From Synechococcus sp. CO36386bin_37 (GTDB taxonomy: Bacteria > Cyanobacteriota > Cyanobacteriia > PCC-6307 > Cyanobiaceae), in the NCBI GenBank assembly GCA_011525445.1, contig WTGE01000272.1, positions 1 to 6,331 of the forward strand: a stretch of DNA of 6,331 nucleotides, given 5' to 3'. The notes under the pieces were generated by a model, which was given only the letters and a program-made list of their open reading frames with translations, did not search any database and was not told where the DNA came from. Shown piece after piece: positions 1-6,331 of the stretch; position 1 is the first letter of the stretch, and each line of letters opens with the position of its first letter. The translations under genes were made by a program, and so were the position numbers.

Positions 1-701
1 GAATCAAGTCTGTGACGGTCGATCCACTGACAGGTTTGCAGACCTTTGAATTCGAGACTCCCAAGAATTTTGAGTACCCAAAAAATCAGTTTTTTGACTT
101 TGTTACCGCGCAAATTAAAGGCGGTAGCACCAAGGTTTTGGCCGATCCAACGCTCATTATTCAGGAAAGCGAATCATCCAGTGTTGGGGTTGGGCGGACT
201 TACACCACGAAAGTAGATTCGTCCTCTTCTTCTACCGGGGTCATCAGTTGTGATCAGATCAAGGAGGAGGCTGGTCTTGAAGTTGATGTTTCTGTGGCAA
301 GAATTGATGACAATGGTTTCATCACACTGAAGGTCAATCCAACGTTGAGTGCACCGGCCGGTGACCCGGAAGAAACTTCCTACAATAATGTGAAGTATAG
401 GCTGCAAGATTTGTCGATACGCGAGCTGAAGACTGGAGAATTTCGCGTAAGAGATGGTCAGACTCTCATATTGACTGGGGTCATCCAAGATGAAGTTAGG
501 GAGCTTTACACTAAATGGCCTGTTTTAGGCGATATTCCGCTGATTGGTCAATTCTTTAGGTCAACAAGTAGCGCACGAGAAAAGCGTGAGCTTGTAATTG
601 TCGTCACTCCCAGCGTCGTCAACGATGATCAAGGTGGTAATTATGGATATGGTTATCAGCCAACAACTCAAGACGCTAGAAAGCTGATTTATCAGCCTTA
701 A
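1..701 (+). CDS. pilQ: Type IV pilus secretin, C-terminal part (5' end outside window)
   Basis: This is the C-terminal barrel region of an outer-membrane secretin, the multimeric pore through which the pilus fibre exits. The frame is open to the left edge (ATC AAG TCT precede the GTG at 12), so that GTG is an internal valine and the gene is 5'-truncated. Visible landmarks are a KVLADPTL segment (about 136-159) matching the family's 'KvLs.P.l' strand, a Ser-rich gate region with one Cys (codon 249-251), EEAGLEVDVSV (about 265-297) matching the 'G..L.V.P.I' strand, and RVRDGQTLILTG (about 444-479). These are followed by the secretin signature PVLGDIPLIGQFF (about 520-558) and ELVIVVTP (about 589-612). 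A Gly/Tyr/Gln-rich tail follows. PilQ is favoured over the type II GspD because every convergent neighbour is a pilin-like gene, but the N-terminal domains that would settle this are missing. The stop is TAA at 699-701. Confidence 0.93.
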   Translation, partial: IKSVTVDPLTGLQTFEFETPKNFEYPKNQFFDFVTAQIKGGSTKVLADPTLIIQESESSSVGVGRTYTTKVDSSSSSTGVISCDQIKEEAGLEVDVSVARIDDNGFITLKVNPTLSAPAGDPEETSYNNVKYRLQDLSIRELKTGEFRVRDGQTLILTGVIQDEVRELYTKWPVLGDIPLIGQFFRSTSSAREKRELVIVVTPSVVNDDQGGNYGYGYQPTTQDARKLIYQP

Positions 702-710
702 TAGCTTGGT

Positions 711-2267
711 TTACTGGTCAACAAGTTTGTAAGACCCGCTGCCGCTATTGCTCATCATTTCCATCCACGGAGAATGCAAGCCGATTGATATTGTGTTGAC
801 AGCAAGTTGATTGCTGCGTCTGTTGTTCATGTTTAAGTACCGATTGGCCGTTTTGTTGTAATCCCGGCTGTTCCAATGGCCGCCATTGGGGTCATGGTTG
901 GGTTGGCCATCAGTGAGGAAGTAGATGCTGTTGGCTGCGTCGTTGTTGAAGGCGCGGTTCAAAGCATCCCAAGGATGGGTTCCACCCCATCGCGTAACCG
1001 TCCCATTGGAAAGCGAGTTCACAAATTCCAAAGCGCTATTTCGGTTGGTTGGTGTCAGAGCCAGCAGTTCTCCTTGCTCCCAGTTGCGGTGATTGAGGTG
1101 GCCTGGGGAGCTGAATGCTTGCAGGCTCAGCTTTGTGGTGGCGGGCAGGGAATTCAGCAAGTTGCGCAATTCGCTTTGTAGCGACTCCATGCGTGTGGCC
1201 AGACAGGTTCGGCGTGTACGGAAATAGCGGCGGCCGTTAAAGAAGACGCGGCTGCGACTGGCTCTGGTGTTGCCCCAGGCGATGCATGCACTCATCGAGC
1301 CGGAACCATCCACCACCAGTTGAACCGAATCGCTATCAACGGGAATGCCATAAAAACTGCAGTTGCTGCCAACACAGCGGCTAATCGTGTCGGCTTCATC
1401 GCTGGCGCCGCTGCGTACGGCATAGAACGCATCAGTGCGGGATACCTTGTCAGCGCGGGCGTAGGCGATTAGGTCGAGATCGACGTAGCGGCCGCCTTTC
1501 GCTCCCGGGTTGTGCAGATAGCTGTGTTGAATGGCGTCCGATTCCTCTGTGGGGTCAATGATTTTGAGCAGTTTGCGGTGGTTGTCGGTCTGAATGGCAA
1601 TGGCTGGCTCCAAATAGGAGCGCATGCCTGAACTGTTATTGGCATTCAGCGTGGTGTCTAGGCCAGCAGCAATTTGGGCAATGCTGAGTTGCCGCCCTTG
1701 TTTATCAGCGGGGCCATCGCAGCGTTTCGTTTCGCTGTTGCAGGGGATCGAGCCAATCCCTTCCAGCACGGTTGAGCGGATGGCAGTTTCGGTTTCGTAG
1801 CGACCATCAGCCCTCAGGGGTGGGCCGCAGCGGATGAGTGCATAGTTCATGCCGTTTTTAGCGACTCCCAAGCCGTAGATCACGGGAGTATCGAGTTCGG
1901 CCATCTTCATTCCGAAGAATGGATTGAATACGCTGTTTGGTTCCAGTGCCGCGCAGGTATTCAGAGCTGTTTTGTATTCGGGATGGTCAGGGTTGTTGAG
2001 ATCGGTGTATTCCCGTTGAGCAGCATGTGTACCTCCTTGCACCATGAGGTGAAGGCTGCGCTGCACTTCTGAGCGCAATAAACGTGTACCAGTCGTCGCA
2101 TTGCTGCGCAACCCTGAGAGATCACTACTTTCACGAATTGCTGAATTCAAGCCGCGCATGCCGACTGCTGCTCCACCAGCTACCACCATCGTGGTGACTG
2201 CTGCCACCAAAGCCTCTGTAAGTGTGAATCCGTTGGTTTTGTTTGGTCTTTTTGTGAAAGGTTTCAT
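711..2267 (-). CDS. Modular minor prepilin with C-terminal VWA (MIDAS) domain, likely pilus-tip adhesin
   Basis: The N-terminus is a class III prepilin signal: a basic 13-residue leader ending KTNG, then FTLTE with Glu5 (E18) and a hydrophobic helix to about residue 40. Residues 41-310 form a Cys-containing region (C105, C147, C176, C183, C298, C303) that I cannot assign to a family. From about 314 to the end is a VWA domain: strand VQLVVD, then DGSGS (D320, S322, S324), T430 in GGT and D453 in LTDG. These complete the metal-ion-dependent adhesion site. C328 and C355 lie inside the VWA domain and may pair. Known parallels are PilY1/PilC1 tip proteins and the modular VWA pilin PilB of Streptococcus sanguinis. 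The start is set at ATG 2267, giving a short leader and 38 nt after the previous gene. A GTG at 2321 would overlap the previous gene and give a 31-residue leader. It is the last gene of the operon. A role in adhesion or pilus priming is inferred. Confidence 0.88.
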   Translation of the reverse strand: MKPFTKRPNKTNGFTLTEALVAAVTTMVVAGGAAVGMRGLNSAIRESSDLSGLRSNATTGTRLLRSEVQRSLHLMVQGGTHAAQREYTDLNNPDHPEYKTALNTCAALEPNSVFNPFFGMKMAELDTPVIYGLGVAKNGMNYALIRCGPPLRADGRYETETAIRSTVLEGIGSIPCNSETKRCDGPADKQGRQLSIAQIAAGLDTTLNANNSSGMRSYLEPAIAIQTDNHRKLLKIIDPTEESDAIQHSYLHNPGAKGGRYVDLDLIAYARADKVSRTDAFYAVRSGASDEADTISRCVGSNCSFYGIPVDSDSVQLVVDGSGSMSACIAWGNTRASRSRVFFNGRRYFRTRRTCLATRMESLQSELRNLLNSLPATTKLSLQAFSSPGHLNHRNWEQGELLALTPTNRNSALEFVNSLSNGTVTRWGGTHPWDALNRAFNNDAANSIYFLTDGQPNHDPNGGHWNSRDYNKTANRYLNMNNRRSNQLAVNTISIGLHSPWMEMMSNSGSGSYKLVDQ

Positions 2268-2305: not shown

Positions 2306-2950
2306 TTAGCTTTGTGTGCACTGTCCGGTGTCAAAGTCTTTACCTCTCCAAGTCCCTCGGATCAAGGTCCCTGTCATGACTTCGAGCTGAAGGCATCGCT
2401 CTAGTCCTTTGCGTTTGGCCATCAGACCTCTTGAACGGATCCGAATTGTGAGGGGATTTGGGTCAAAACTGGCCTCCGGAGCTGTTACGCCACCGATGGT
2501 GTTCATTGAGATTTGCTTTGGTGAAATCAGGAGCCTGATGTCGTTGTATTGATGCTCGGAAAGGCTGTTTTTGAGATTGAGAAATCTGGTTTGGGTGGGT
2601 TTCATGCTTAGTCCACCCATGTCTGTTGTCGGAGGTGGGCACCAAGCCTCTGGATTGAGAGGGTCGTCGTCGATGGTCAGGTTCTCTAGTGCAAAAGGCG
2701 TGATTTCTGTTTCATTGCCTGAGCCAGCTGGAAGTTGGATGCGGCAGCTGCCTTGACGGCTCACCATATTGGCTTTCATCTGAATAATGCCTGATTCAAT
2801 TTTGCTGGTGTAGCTGTCGACAGCCGTCTGCTTAATTTGTTGATCAACCATCGGCAAGAAGGCTGCCATTCCAATGCTCGTAATTGCAAGTCCAACCATT
2901 AACTCCGTGAACGTGAATCCATAGTCTCCTTTTGGCCTGATGTGCTTCAT
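2306..2950 (-). CDS. Minor type IV prepilin, family uncertain (PilW/GspJ-position)
   Basis: This is a 214-aa prepilin. It has an 11-residue basic leader (MKHIRPKGDYG), predicted prepilin-peptidase cleavage between G11 and F12, a mature start FTFTE with Glu5 at E16, and a hydrophobic helix to about residue 35. The rest should be periplasmic or fibre-exposed before assembly and contains four cysteines (C69, C104, C186, C211), enough for two disulfides. I do not recognise the globular domain. Its size and its place between a PilV-like and a VWA pilin suggest the slot held by PilW or GspJ in other systems, but that rests on context. The ATG start lies 2 nt after the TAA of the upstream gene, so translation is probably coupled. 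No clear Shine-Dalgarno sequence is visible. The stop is TAA at 2308-2306. Confidence 0.85.
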   Translation of the reverse strand: MKHIRPKGDYGFTFTELMVGLAITSIGMAAFLPMVDQQIKQTAVDSYTSKIESGIIQMKANMVSRQGSCRIQLPAGSGNETEITPFALENLTIDDDPLNPEAWCPPPTTDMGGLSMKPTQTRFLNLKNSLSEHQYNDIRLLISPKQISMNTIGGVTAPEASFDPNPLTIRIRSRGLMAKRKGLERCLQLEVMTGTLIRGTWRGKDFDTGQCTQS

Positions 2951-2952
2951 GG

Positions 2953-3417
2953 TTAACAGGTCGCCATGAAACTTGGGTTCAGTTCGACAATCCGGTATTC
3001 CTTGGATTCTTCTTCTCGCATGGGGATCTCAAAGGCATAGGTCAAGACCAGGATGTCTGGATCGCTGCTGTCGGATTGCCGGGTCCAATTGCTGTTTTGT
3101 GGTACTGGGTTTTCACTATTAATGAGCTGGGAGAGGTGTTGTGCTCCGTTGTTACTGGCACAAGCTGCTGGCTTGAGCTCATCGGAGTTATTGACCAATG
3201 CATCGAGTGCCTGAACTTGCTCAATGTCATTGAGGATCGCCATCTCCAATGCCGCCCGTTCGCCACTGCGGCTCGAGTTGGCCATTCCCATCAAGAGAAA
3301 ACGGTTGGTACTGAGCATCAGCAGAAATAAAATCACTCCTGCCACGAGTGACTCCATCAACGTGAACCCATTGGCTTGGAGCTGCTTGCGCAGTGGTTGG
3401 CGTCGAAGCGTTTGCAT
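2953..3417 (-). CDS. Minor type IV prepilin, PilV/GspI-like
   Basis: This is a 154-aa prepilin with a basic 17-residue leader (many Arg and Gln) ending QANG, cleavage before F18, a mature N-terminus FTLMES with Glu5 at E22, and a hydrophobic helix to about residue 43. The FTLMESLVA start is typical of the PilV/GspI group, small minor pilins that help initiate pilus assembly. A possible disulfide joins C86 to C154, the last residue. The start ATG overlaps the TGA of the upstream PilX-like gene by one base (TGATG), a sign of translational coupling. The codon before it is GTG, which would also work and give a 4-nt overlap (GTGA) and one extra residue. The two choices do not change the mature protein. 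Confidence 0.87.
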   Translation of the reverse strand: MQTLRRQPLRKQLQANGFTLMESLVAGVILFLLMLSTNRFLLMGMANSSRSGERAALEMAILNDIEQVQALDALVNNSDELKPAACASNNGAQHLSQLINSENPVPQNSNWTRQSDSSDPDILVLTYAFEIPMREEESKEYRIVELNPSFMATC

Positions 3418-5090
3418 CACCAGCGCACAAACATGTCCAATCCAGTCCCGCGTACTCCCTTGGTGACTGTGCGCCCGAATGTGAGGGATTCATTGGGTGA
3501 CCAGGTGTCCTTGAAGCTCTGGATTACTGATTGGCCGCCTGGTTCAGTCGTGCTCAAGTACAGACCGCCATCGGCACAGATGTTGTGGGCCCAGATCAAT
3601 CCGCGCATGGCGGTGGGTTGTTGCACCGTGACAGAGCCTTGTGGCATGACCACCAGTGCCGAGGGCAGCACCATGTCCCTGAAACTGAGTTGTTGTCGGT
3701 TATTGCTGCATGTACTGGCTTTGTTGGCGCCTGTGCCAAGAATCACGAGGTAACTTGCCACGCTTTGGTTGAAGTTCTGGCATGGCAAGGGTCCTGATCG
3801 GCCAGCGCGGAAGTTTGCCTGACAAAGCTGACCGGAAGTCAGCTCAATCGATTCTTGAGGCCGCAGCATCCTTAGAACAACAGGACGGGCTCCGGTGGAA
3901 ATGCTGGTTTCTACGCTGAGCGTGGCACCACGGCTGAGCTTGATGCTCTCGACCCAGATAGCGCAGGCTTGGTTTGGGCTGATTTGGCAAATGTCTTCGT
4001 TGTGAAGAGTGATCGCCTTGACCCTCCCCCCTGTGCGTTCCACCGTTGAGCGACTGTCCATTGACACCCATCGGCTCTGTGATTCGCCACGGGTGCAGAT
4101 GGCATCACCGCTGGCCCCAGCTGGTGGCTGGCTGCCATCGCACATCAGGCTGCGGTTGTCGTCGATTGACCAGATTCGGCGCTCTGAATTGGTATGGCTA
4201 TCGACTCGATCAATCGCTGTTTGTTGATCAAAAATTCCAGCGCTAGGGAATTCCACGTCAGCAGCTGTTGTGCTGGATAACGGCCACACCCTGCTGGCAG
4301 TGCTGATGTTGCTAATTCCAAGTTGATCAGCCAAGCCGAAGCTGTTGCAGGCCGTCTGTTGTATGGCGTCGTTGGCTTGCTGTTTGTTCAGCATCCAGAG
4401 GATGCGCCCCTCGCCAAAGATTTGGCTGGGTCCTAGTTGCATGGATCGTGCAGCGATTACTCCCCAGTCGTCGTCGCTGCTGTGTTGATCCTGTAAGGCG
4501 AGCACCCTGGTCAGCAGGGAACGACCCAGCACTTTGGCGTTTTCGCCCTCTCCAGCAGTGGCATAGCCCTCGACAGCAAAAGTGGCTTTGCGATCACCCG
4601 CTGAATAGTTGTAAGAGCGCAGCCGGTAACTGATTCGGACGGGCTCTTTGCGGCCGTCATCCCTTAAGTTTTTGCCGTTGCTCAAGTCACCGGCAAACAA
4701 AACATCGCGGTTGGTGCCGCTGTTGACAGCCTCGGTGCAGGGCTGAGCCATCGCCTTACGCAACGCATTACCAGTGAGATCCCATTGCTGAAGAGGAGTT
4801 TCAAGCGGCGTGTACTCCTCGTTTTGGCTCAGCTTCCAAAGATGAGAGATGTTGGCGTCATCGTTATTGAGGACGGCCAGGATTCGATTCATCCCGTTAC
4901 CAGCAGCCAATTCCGCCAGTTGCTTGTATCCCTCGGATGCACCAGCACGCCGACTCATCATCTGTTTGGCGACGAGTCCGCTTGTGGCCATCAGCAGCAC
5001 AAAGCCAGTCATTAGCGCCATTGCCACGGCCATACCGGCATCACTTCCCGCTTGTCGGCGAAAGCGTTGTGGCAGGAGGGCTCGTTTCAT
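3417..5090 (-). CDS. Very large PilX/GspK-like pseudopilin with beta-rich C-terminal region
   Basis: The N-terminus is basic (MKRALLPQRFRR), then SDAG and a hydrophobic stretch at about 20-41, followed by an amphipathic helix with LAELAAGNGMNRILAVL-like heptads. This is the layout of PilX-type pilins. If cleavage follows G19 the mature protein begins MAVAM, so position 5 is Met, not Glu; GspK, the tip pseudopilin of type II secretion, also lacks Glu5. At 557 aa it is far longer than a typical PilX (roughly 150-200 aa) or GspK (about 300 aa). From about residue 355 the chain reads as short hydrophobic strands with Gly/Ser turns, for example SALVVMPQGSVTV and RGLIWAHNICADGGLYL. That suggests a beta-helix or bactofilin-like fold, which is inference. 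It has ten cysteines. The ATG start overlaps the upstream stop as ATGA; a GTG two codons earlier is the less likely alternative. Confidence 0.8.
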   Translation of the reverse strand: MKRALLPQRFRRQAGSDAGMAVAMALMTGFVLLMATSGLVAKQMMSRRAGASEGYKQLAELAAGNGMNRILAVLNNDDANISHLWKLSQNEEYTPLETPLQQWDLTGNALRKAMAQPCTEAVNSGTNRDVLFAGDLSNGKNLRDDGRKEPVRISYRLRSYNYSAGDRKATFAVEGYATAGEGENAKVLGRSLLTRVLALQDQHSSDDDWGVIAARSMQLGPSQIFGEGRILWMLNKQQANDAIQQTACNSFGLADQLGISNISTASRVWPLSSTTAADVEFPSAGIFDQQTAIDRVDSHTNSERRIWSIDDNRSLMCDGSQPPAGASGDAICTRGESQSRWVSMDSRSTVERTGGRVKAITLHNEDICQISPNQACAIWVESIKLSRGATLSVETSISTGARPVVLRMLRPQESIELTSGQLCQANFRAGRSGPLPCQNFNQSVASYLVILGTGANKASTCSNNRQQLSFRDMVLPSALVVMPQGSVTVQQPTAMRGLIWAHNICADGGLYLSTTEPGGQSVIQSFKDTWSPNESLTFGRTVTKGVRGTGLDMFVRW

Positions 5091-5563
5091 GAGCACTGCA
5101 CCGCCCGCTTTGTTTTGCCGGGTTGATCGCGCTGCAGATCGGAAACGCCAGTTGTTGTGTTCAAGCAGGCCTGAATCCCCCAGCCGGAGGAGTTGGCTTT
5201 GGTGGCTTGGGCGGTGGTGATGTCGCCCAAGCTGTTGAAGGAGATCTGGAAATGGCCGCCATTGGGGGTGCTGATCGGCCTTCCGAGTGGACCTGTGGCA
5301 ATGCCGGTGTCGGTCATCACCGGTGTGATCAGGGCAATGTCCTCCCAGCTGCGCGGGAGCTCGAGAAACTCTTCTCGGTAGGCCTGAACGCTGGTGAGGA
5401 TCGTCATGATCTGGCTGGAGGCATCGCTTTGGCGGGCGCGATGCACAGCGTTGAGGTAGTTCGGGAAGCCAATGGCCGAGAGGATGCCGACGATGGCCAC
5501 AGCAACCGCCAGTTCCGGCAGGGTGAAGCCGGCATTGGAACGAGCGGTTGCGCGTGGAGTCAT
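5087..5563 (-). CDS. Type IV prepilin, PilA-like (second pilin of the operon)
   Basis: This is a 158-aa prepilin with an 11-residue leader before G12. Cleavage leaves FTLPELAVAVAIVGILSAIG, with Glu5 at E17, and a classic PilA helix including FPNYLNAVHRARQ. The globular part has a single predicted disulfide between C133 and C157, closing a C-terminal D-region loop; the protein ends QCS. It resembles the pilin immediately upstream in helix sequence, size and Cys placement, so the two may be an old tandem duplication. It could be a major or an accessory fibre subunit; the sequence does not say. The start ATG lies 36 nt after the upstream stop, without an obvious Shine-Dalgarno sequence. The 3' end overlaps the next gene by four bases. 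Confidence 0.9.
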   Translation of the reverse strand: MTPRATARSNAGFTLPELAVAVAIVGILSAIGFPNYLNAVHRARQSDASSQIMTILTSVQAYREEFLELPRSWEDIALITPVMTDTGIATGPLGRPISTPNGGHFQISFNSLGDITTAQATKANSSGWGIQACLNTTTGVSDLQRDQPGKTKRAVQCS

Positions 5564-5599: not shown

Positions 5600-6085
5600 T
5601 CAGCTGCACTTCGGAGCGGTGCTTTCATCCAGCACCGACTGCATGTCGACCTTGCCGGTGTCGAAATTCACGCAGCCCTTCATGGCCTTGCCGGTGAGGC
5701 CTTCATCGGTTGCGTTGCCGGTGGCTGTGATCGTGTAAACCGGCTTGCTCCACGCGCCTGTGTAGTTGAAGAGCGTGGCCCCATCGGTGGGGGTGCCATA
5801 GAGCTCGTTCATGTCTTTGGCGGTGGTTTTCGGCGAGGTGCCGTCTTCCACGAATTGGGCCTGGGCCTGCTTCAACGTGGAGGTGATGCTCTGCTTGGCC
5901 TCAGTGGCTTTGGCCTTATCGGTTTGCCTGAGGAAGTTCGGCAGGGCGATGGCACTGAGGATGCCAACGATCACGATCACCACCATCAGCTCCACCAAGG
6001 TGAAGCCGGAGTTGCTGTTGCTGCTGCCTTGGCGAGTGAGCCGTTGGCGTTGCAGTTGGATCAAGCGGTAGGCGCTAAAGCTCAT
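5600..6085 (-). CDS. pilA: Type IV prepilin PilA (probable major pilin), long leader
   Basis: This first gene of the operon encodes a 161-aa prepilin, 134 aa when mature. Its leader is unusually long (26 residues, Gln/Arg-rich, then SSNSNSG). Cleavage after G27 leaves FTLVELMVVIVIVGILSAIALPNF with Glu5 at E32, almost the consensus type IVa pilin helix. A C-terminal loop is framed by C138 and C160, with the protein ending KCS; this D-region loop is typical of fibre-forming pilins. Promoter-proximal position, consensus helix and compact size make it the best candidate for the main fibre subunit. The ATG is preceded by GAGAG four bases upstream (a weak ribosome site), and the start codon sits in a short inverted repeat. 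Hand-counted G+C is about 61% in 5641-5880, higher than in the secretin. The leader could be shorter only if a non-ATG start were used. Confidence 0.93.
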   Translation of the reverse strand: MSFSAYRLIQLQRQRLTRQGSSNSNSGFTLVELMVVIVIVGILSAIALPNFLRQTDKAKATEAKQSITSTLKQAQAQFVEDGTSPKTTAKDMNELYGTPTDGATLFNYTGAWSKPVYTITATGNATDEGLTGKAMKGCVNFDTGKVDMQSVLDESTAPKCS

Positions 6086-6197: not shown

Positions 6198-6200
6198 ATG
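6178..6200 (+). promoter_or_regulatory. Possible short hairpin covering the start codon of the + strand gene
   Basis: CATGGC at 6178-6183 can pair with GCCATG at 6195-6200, giving six base pairs around an 11-nt loop. The 3' arm contains the ATG start codon, so folding would hide it. The loop carries most of the weak GGGG ribosome-site candidate. A 6-bp stem arises often by chance, so this is weak. Confidence 0.25.
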
Positions 6201-6331
6201 TCATCGACTTGGCTGCAGCGTTTCTGGACCTGGCGTCCGCGAACTCTCTCCGCCCGCTTGGCCCGCCTGGGGCTGTGGGTGCTGCTCTTCTATGTGCTGA
6301 TTGCCCTGATCAGCCCGCTGCTGTTTGGCAT
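6198..6331 (+). CDS. Membrane protein, probable ABC transporter permease N-terminus (3' end outside window)
   Basis: The ATG at 6198 opens a frame that stays open to the window edge (44 codons plus two bases). The product starts with a basic, Trp-rich segment (MSSTWLQRFWTWRPR, then LSARLARL). A strongly hydrophobic segment LGLWVLLFYVLIALISPLLFG follows at residues 24-44, clearly a first transmembrane helix. A basic N-terminus followed by one helix ending in a 'l.sP.l' motif is the usual start of DppC/OppC-type peptide or nickel permeases of ABC importers, and that is my best guess. Too little is present to exclude another inner-membrane protein. The frame is closed by TAG at 6162, so the true start must be within 36 bases of the one chosen. 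It is divergent from the pilin operon and need not be related to it. Confidence 0.7.
   Translation, partial: MSSTWLQRFWTWRPRTLSARLARLGLWVLLFYVLIALISPLLFG

Follow-up and report, generated by a model that had tools for sequence, protein, structure and literature searches.

Pilins that carry a von Willebrand factor type A (VWA) domain are already known from PilB of Streptococcus sanguinis (PMC8179133) and from CpaL of the Caulobacter crescentus Tad pilus (PMC12607857). PilB combines a class III leader, a pilin module and a C-terminal VWA domain with a metal ion-dependent adhesion site (MIDAS), has extra structure beside this site and has been proposed to sit at the pilus tip. It is reported to bind Mg2+ or Mn2+ and host proteins, and with the MIDAS removed it still binds fibronectin and fibrinogen; the same report counts more than 1,200 modular pilins in InterPro (PMC8179133). 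CpaL is a minor-pilin-like protein of a diderm, again with a VWA domain and a MIDAS, and is predicted to form a tip trimer with two other minor pilins (PMC12607857). In Pseudomonas, Myxococcus and Neisseria, the minor pilins FimU, PilV, PilW and PilX are accompanied by PilY1/PilC, and some PilY1 proteins show a VWA domain at the tip. Exchangeable minor-pilin tips are also known, as the Tad pili of Myxococcus use several alternative ones, the Kil Tips, with different C-terminal domains in one genome (PMC12075869). Here we analyze a stretch of 6,331 nucleotides from Synechococcus sp. CO36386bin_37 (the window), in which a minus-strand gene at 711..2267, termed W::VWA, encodes a prepilin fused to a VWA domain. 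The product is likely to be a tip minor pilin, most probably a W/J-type subunit with the VWA domain added to its head, and would serve in place of PilY1. In view of PilB and CpaL the fusion is less novel than the initial annotation of this DNA had supposed.

This assignment is based on a single reading frame, a prepilin leader, a predicted pilin head and VWA fold, conserved MIDAS residues and a fixed place behind K-, V- and H-like genes. The parts of the gene are as follows:

711..2267, minus strand: W::VWA modular minor pilin of 518 amino acids (aa), one open frame
2229..2267, minus strand: leader peptide of class III (residues 1-13), with a predicted cleavage site behind G13 (sequence)
2058..2228, minus strand: N-terminal pilin helix, residues 14-70, with E at +5 (sequence, structure model, alignment)
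1440..2057, minus strand: residues 71-276, a pilin head that is most likely of the J/W type and carries the motif RCGPPLRADG at 146-155 (structure model)
1338..1439, minus strand: linker, residues 277-310 (predicted local distance difference test score, pLDDT, below 50 at 283-301)
714..1337, minus strand: VWA domain, residues 311-518 (confident model and structural matches)
1296..1310, minus strand: MIDAS motif DGSGS, residues 320-324, with D320, S322 and S324 (sequence, alignments)
1194..1286, minus strand: beta-hairpin arm, residues 328-358, adjoining the MIDAS loop in sequence, with C328 and C355 (model, alignment)
978..980, minus strand: MIDAS residue T430 (sequence, alignments)
909..911, minus strand: MIDAS residue D453 (sequence, alignments)

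The window DNA was checked and contains neither a stop nor a frameshift between 711 and 2267. The leader is hydrophilic and ends at Gly13; next come the residues FTLTE and a helix of hydrophobic character. For the single sequence, the Pfam scores of both the pilin end and the VWA end remain below the cut-offs, and neither Pfam nor NCBIfam yielded a match of the protein to a curated GspJ/PilW profile. The region between helix and VWA domain, some 270 residues that had been left unassigned, is predicted to be a pilin head, so that a single member of a minor-pilin set, ordinary in other respects, carries the VWA domain. Modelled alone (residues 38-290), this head reached a pLDDT of 85.7 and a predicted template modelling score of 0.84. 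A Foldseek search with it returned nothing at E ≤ 0.001, the top row being 3cfi chain E at E 0.28, and the J-type result depends on a VIA-align comparison of the candidates supplied by Foldseek, in which the top seven structures were all minor-pseudopilin chains of type II secretion systems. The carrier is thus most likely of J/W type by predicted fold and by position, outside curated GspJ/PilW membership. With the whole model, the top Foldseek rows were VWA-like by title and 3cfi chain E appeared at rank 47; the absence of PilB from this list is no evidence either way. A search of PHROGs gave no match.

When the 7,995 best candidates of a protein search with W::VWA were scored, 92 proteins reached E ≤ 0.001, including P0002, which is identical. 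Residue conservation was read after aligning the window protein to the 91 matches other than P0002, with P0055, which lacks two of the columns, set aside. Where the aligned proteins have a letter, position 13 is Gly in 78 of 78 and position 18 is Glu in 77 of 78. The complete set of five MIDAS residues is found in 88 of 91, and C328 and C355 are invariant (92/92). The fusion, the class III start G13|FTLTE and the predicted VWA fold with all five MIDAS residues, as first read from the letters, are thereby borne out by the intact frame, the confident model and full-length homologues with the same architecture. A scan of genome contigs with the single protein found no relative, and a profile of the window protein and 52 of the 92 homologues (A1) was used instead, yielding 26 loci. 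Four of these (L023-L026, Planctomycetota) match W::VWA weakly and partially and were excluded, leaving 22 (L001-L022). The clade-I frames from fetched loci, 41 in number and 34 of them distinct, have the five MIDAS residues throughout; at the aligned leader glycine, L012 has a methionine and L019 a gap. Note that L015 and L021 are recorded as Coxiellaceae and Gammaproteobacteria, respectively, but carry Synechococcus-like pilus genes, and L015 duplicates part of L008; both are probably misbinned Synechococcus contigs and are counted among the 22.

In the window, the minus strand reads PilA-like, PilE-like, K/X-like, V-like, H-like and W::VWA, with these neighbours:

5600..6085, minus strand: PilA-like pilin, 161 aa; N_methyl over cut-off, syntenic
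5087..5563, minus strand: PilE-like pilin, 158 aa; N_methyl over cut-off, syntenic
3417..5096, minus strand: K/X-like large subunit, 557-559 aa; MAVAM behind a leader-type Gly, without Glu at +5 (alignment A6), syntenic
2953..3420, minus strand: V-like minor pilin in the presumed PilV/GspI position, 155 aa; weak pilin-model matches, GFTLMES leader motif, syntenic
2306..2950, minus strand: H-like minor pilin in the presumed FimU/GspH position, 214 aa; N_methyl over cut-off, syntenic
3..701, plus strand: secretin gene (C-terminal part), which converges on the operon; PF00263, 123.4 bits

The pilins adjoining W::VWA are of the GFTLxE type. The stretch 6198-6331, ahead of the PilA-like gene, holds the beginning of a plus-strand frame that diverges from the operon, has a hydrophobic N-terminus and runs off the window. 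The order V-H-W::VWA is present in all 22 loci and K lies upstream in 21 of them (L015 spans 3 kb), while 15 have both an A-like and an E-like gene upstream. Among the rest, L002, L009, L015, L017 and L020 end at a contig edge, in L013 the A-like gene lies downstream, and L019 has two A-like genes and no clear E. A plain W-like pilin of 205-228 aa is also present in 5 of the 22 loci (L001-L004, L022). In the K-like proteins of alignment A6, a leader-type Gly precedes MAxxxAL and Glu is missing at +5, as in GspK and PilX. None of ten members matched a Pfam pilin model, PilX_N and T2SSK included, and the product of 3417-5096 is classed as K/X-like by N-terminal signature and position only. An operon with PilV- and PilX-like pilins, as the initial annotation had it, stands as a minor-pilin cassette with V-like and K/X-like members named by position, the K-like one outside the Pfam models.

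The same gene order is found in Synechococcus WH7803 (L018), where the terminal VWA pilin shares 34% identity over its best segment. By gene order from SynWH7803_1795 onward, this VWA gene is probably SynWH7803_1800; in a cyanophage study 1795-1798 and 1800 carry negative values in the table of differentially expressed host genes (PMC5931967). The pili of WH7803 keep cells suspended, twitching is not apparent, and SynWH7803_1797, just 3' of pilA1-pilE, is part of the exoproteome and lower in a pilA1-pilE mutant (PMC7994388). The window secretin gene ends beside W::VWA; the pilMNOQ genes of WH7803 are reported elsewhere in its genome, and the main text of that study uses neither 'von Willebrand' nor 'PilY' (PMC7994388).

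The initial annotation had suggested a survey of picocyanobacterial genomes for the fusion, dealt with below, and for a separate PilY1. The latter was sought genome by genome through its PF05567 propeller. There was no match in 7 genomes in which the VWA pilin had been found, in 300 genomes from the family of WH7803 or in 292 from its phylum, two overlapping samples that we take to represent Cyanobiaceae and Cyanobacteriota. The search also matched none of 14 built-in control genomes and none of 6 others, and it was relied on only after 38 of 75 genomes from one control class, presumably Gammaproteobacteria, had given matches, 35 of them above the cut-off. These data support, without proving, that cyanobacteria lack PilY1, as a propeller too divergent for the PF05567 model would escape the search.

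PilY1 is a protein of its own, not a pilin, and carries a beta-propeller, whereas in W::VWA, where Pfam found no PF05567 propeller, the VWA domain belongs to the pilin itself, and by position the cyanobacterial set appears comparable to FimU-PilV-PilW-PilX. PilB, for all its likeness in leader, pilin module, C-terminal VWA domain with MIDAS, added structure beside this site and presumed location, comes from a monoderm and has a pilin module with an unusual two-sheet fold (PMC8179133), and W::VWA differs further by its K-V-H neighbours and by the existence of a second head type described below. Searched against the sequences of Protein Data Bank chains at E ≤ 1, the A1 profile found two RING finger chains only and no relative, PilB included. 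Independence from PilB, as initially proposed, is thus likely, not proved. CpaL likewise joins a minor-pilin-like protein to a VWA domain in a diderm, but it belongs to a Tad machinery and its VWA domain is split by a beta-rich region (PMC12607857), while W::VWA has a GFTLTE leader.

On this basis a mechanism can be proposed. Prepilin peptidase would cut the leader after G13, and the K, V, H and W subunits, by analogy with GspK-I-J and PilX-V-W-FimU, would form a priming complex from which the fibre grows and which remains at the tip. A flexible linker would hold the VWA head outermost, where the MIDAS may hold Mg2+ or Mn2+ and help to bind a partner, be it a surface, a polysaccharide, another cell or another pilus. 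W::VWA would in this way take over the role of the separate proteobacterial PilY1. What holds of the one-piece tip adhesin first envisaged is the conserved fusion, the minor-pilin cassette and the lack of PF05567 matches; presence in the fibre, a place at the tip, metal in the MIDAS and binding of a partner are predictions of this model.

Several other explanations have to be weighed against a partner-binding tip. Given the suspended life of WH7803 cells (PMC7994388) and the same gene order ending in a VWA gene in that strain, the head might tie pili to one another or to exopolymer, forming a mesh that raises drag, with no role in surface attachment. We regard this as unlikely; the long PilA1 pilus may supply enough drag by itself. 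The flotation pilus without apparent twitching (PMC7994388) at the same time speaks against a mechanosensor or assembly gate, in which the VWA head would contact the secretin or machinery and report tension or set the number of pili, as proposed for CpaL and PilY1. Such a function is rather improbable, even though CpaL shares both modules and its loss stimulates surface sensing, and a disulfide matters for the force response of PilY1 (PMC12607857); in W::VWA, the invariant C328 and C355 lie next to the MIDAS loop in sequence. Relatives devoid of a MIDAS fit a sensor as well, but the site is otherwise strongly conserved. Picocyanobacteria are not known to have a surface-sensing pathway.

The losses are found in P0005 and P0006, homologues with 72-73% identity that have each lost three MIDAS residues (DSANS and SSSNG instead of DSSTD), and they caution that the head may work metal-free in some lineages. 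The longest contigs listed for P0006 and for the distant relative P0077 are equal in length (7482), and the two may share one contig. A competence-pilus cassette whose head binds DNA or an outer-membrane partner seems distinctly unlikely: transformation of S. elongatus requires the minor pilins PilA3 and PilW (PMC7125226), but the plain W-like pilin of L001-L004 and L022 is the better candidate for this task, and the cassette includes a PilA-like gene whose WH7803 counterpart makes the abundant flotation pilus (PMC7994388). That the C-terminal part is no VWA domain at all, or that the halves are separate genes, is next to negligible; the sub-threshold Pfam scores might have hinted at chance resemblance, but the VWA matches of the confident model, the full-length homologues and the uninterrupted frame argue otherwise.

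In the family sample, 71 of the 300 genomes match the A1 profile at E ≤ 0.001, some of the weaker ones with the pilin part or the VWA part only, for which 18 regions were fetched. Clade I, to which the window protein belongs (VWA-I), is found in 39 genomes at E ≤ 3.4e-87, six of them with two copies; this count includes G009, matched at model positions 9-293 only with the VWA part unseen, and G125, in two pieces. In the phylum sample 23 of 292 genomes match, 10 at full length, all of these also in the family sample, and the others over short stretches. A second clade (VWA-II) comprises eight proteins of 453-499 aa in seven small-genome loci (L042-L048), in which the MIDAS residues are D, S, S, T, D, except for one protein with D, S, S, S, D. 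With the profile of this clade, 79 of the 300 genomes match at E ≤ 0.001 and 22 at E ≤ 3.1e-91, the latter including the partial matches G071 and G156, the second with stops.

In L034-L040 a W-type carrier is instead fused to RTX calcium-binding repeats, with PF00353 over cut-off in all seven. With the RTX-W profile, matches at E ≤ 0.001 extend to 239 of the 300 genomes, mostly over short pilin-like or RTX-like stretches, and 23 at E ≤ 2.4e-47; of 12 of these checked with Pfam, 9 were above the cut-off and 3 below. By profile thresholds, a W subunit with a VWA or RTX head is thus present in 79 of 300 genomes (39 + 22 + 23 - 5 with both). Pfam detects no head of either type on the 340-aa carrier of L041, and plain W-like proteins of 183-229 aa are located elsewhere. 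In L040, a frame of 1460 aa with RTX-like motifs (7251-11633) lies directly 5' of V-H-W::RTX, the usual position of K. As judged from sequence, the family has several alternative putative tip cassettes, the VWA cassette among them.

Profile comparison linked VWA-I to VWA-II over most of the length (probability 99.9) and to the RTX carrier over 103 columns (96.3); RTX and plain proteins were linked at 98.4, VWA-I and plain at 89.7 over 68 columns. In a tree of the carrier part (51 rows), the 18 VWA-I rows form one group (support 100/99), as do the 6 VWA-II rows (100/99) and, with moderate support, the 13 RTX rows (85/86). Eleven of 13 plain rows fall together (99/98) and two elsewhere, and the deepest fork is weak (64/59). 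As each head type forms its own group, the heads look like old, long-standing alternatives, which speaks against a recent head swap. Constrained trees with both VWA clades together (approximately unbiased test, p-AU 0.345) or RTX with VWA-II (0.284) were not rejected, and the carrier tree fits one or two gains of the VWA domain.

VWA- and RTX-type W genes stand about 2 to 7 kb apart in 5 of 300 family genomes (L060-L064) and in two single-cell genomes (L011, L017); PF00353 is above cut-off in four of these seven loci (L061, L062, L011, L017) and below in L060, L063 and L064. On one strand, L060 and L061 hold A-E-K-V-H-W::VWA, A-K'-H'-W::RTX-V' and a further V-H-W::VWA, hence three W genes, the first A-like frame of L061 being short, and L062 and L063 have A-E-K-V-H-W::VWA followed by K'-H'-W::RTX-V'. 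The RTX cassettes are ordered K'-V'-H'-W (L035, L036, L037, L039) or K'-H'-W-V' (L034, L060-L063); their H' genes score best with A/E profiles, and the letters are in part positional. The K' protein of L060 (14048-15640) matches PF23981 (DUF7305) at E 9.5e-6, just below cut-off, those of L035 and L036 more weakly.

Tentatively, and with little short of an even chance, PilY1-less picocyanobacteria might hold a menu of tip cassettes, with a W subunit that bears one of several metal-dependent heads, a VWA domain with MIDAS, in two deep clades, or an RTX calcium beta-roll. Cassettes standing side by side could cap the same fibre differently, switching partners or answering Mg/Mn versus Ca, and would be a type IVa pilus counterpart of the Kil Tips; the latter belong to Tad pili of a predator, carry other domains and have been tested genetically (PMC12075869), while the cyanobacterial cassettes are known from sequence alone. 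Our literature searches, covering titles and the beginnings of abstracts, returned no description of a cyanobacterial VWA-pilin family (Dataset S1 of PMC8179133 may list members), of the probable J/W identity of its carrier, of a link to the missing PilY1 matches or of VWA and RTX as alternatives on one kind of subunit.

According to a 2025 review, it is difficult to say which minor pilins of cyanobacterial type IV pili are conserved and which of them make up a tip complex (PMC12288463). The present analysis names a concrete candidate tip set for picocyanobacteria, and the MIDAS aspartate offers a single-residue test point in WH7803, which is genetically tractable and whose pilus phenotype, flotation and escape from grazing, has been measured. 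With VWA and RTX heads as alternatives on the same kind of subunit, the choice of partners by abundant ocean phototrophs would become testable.
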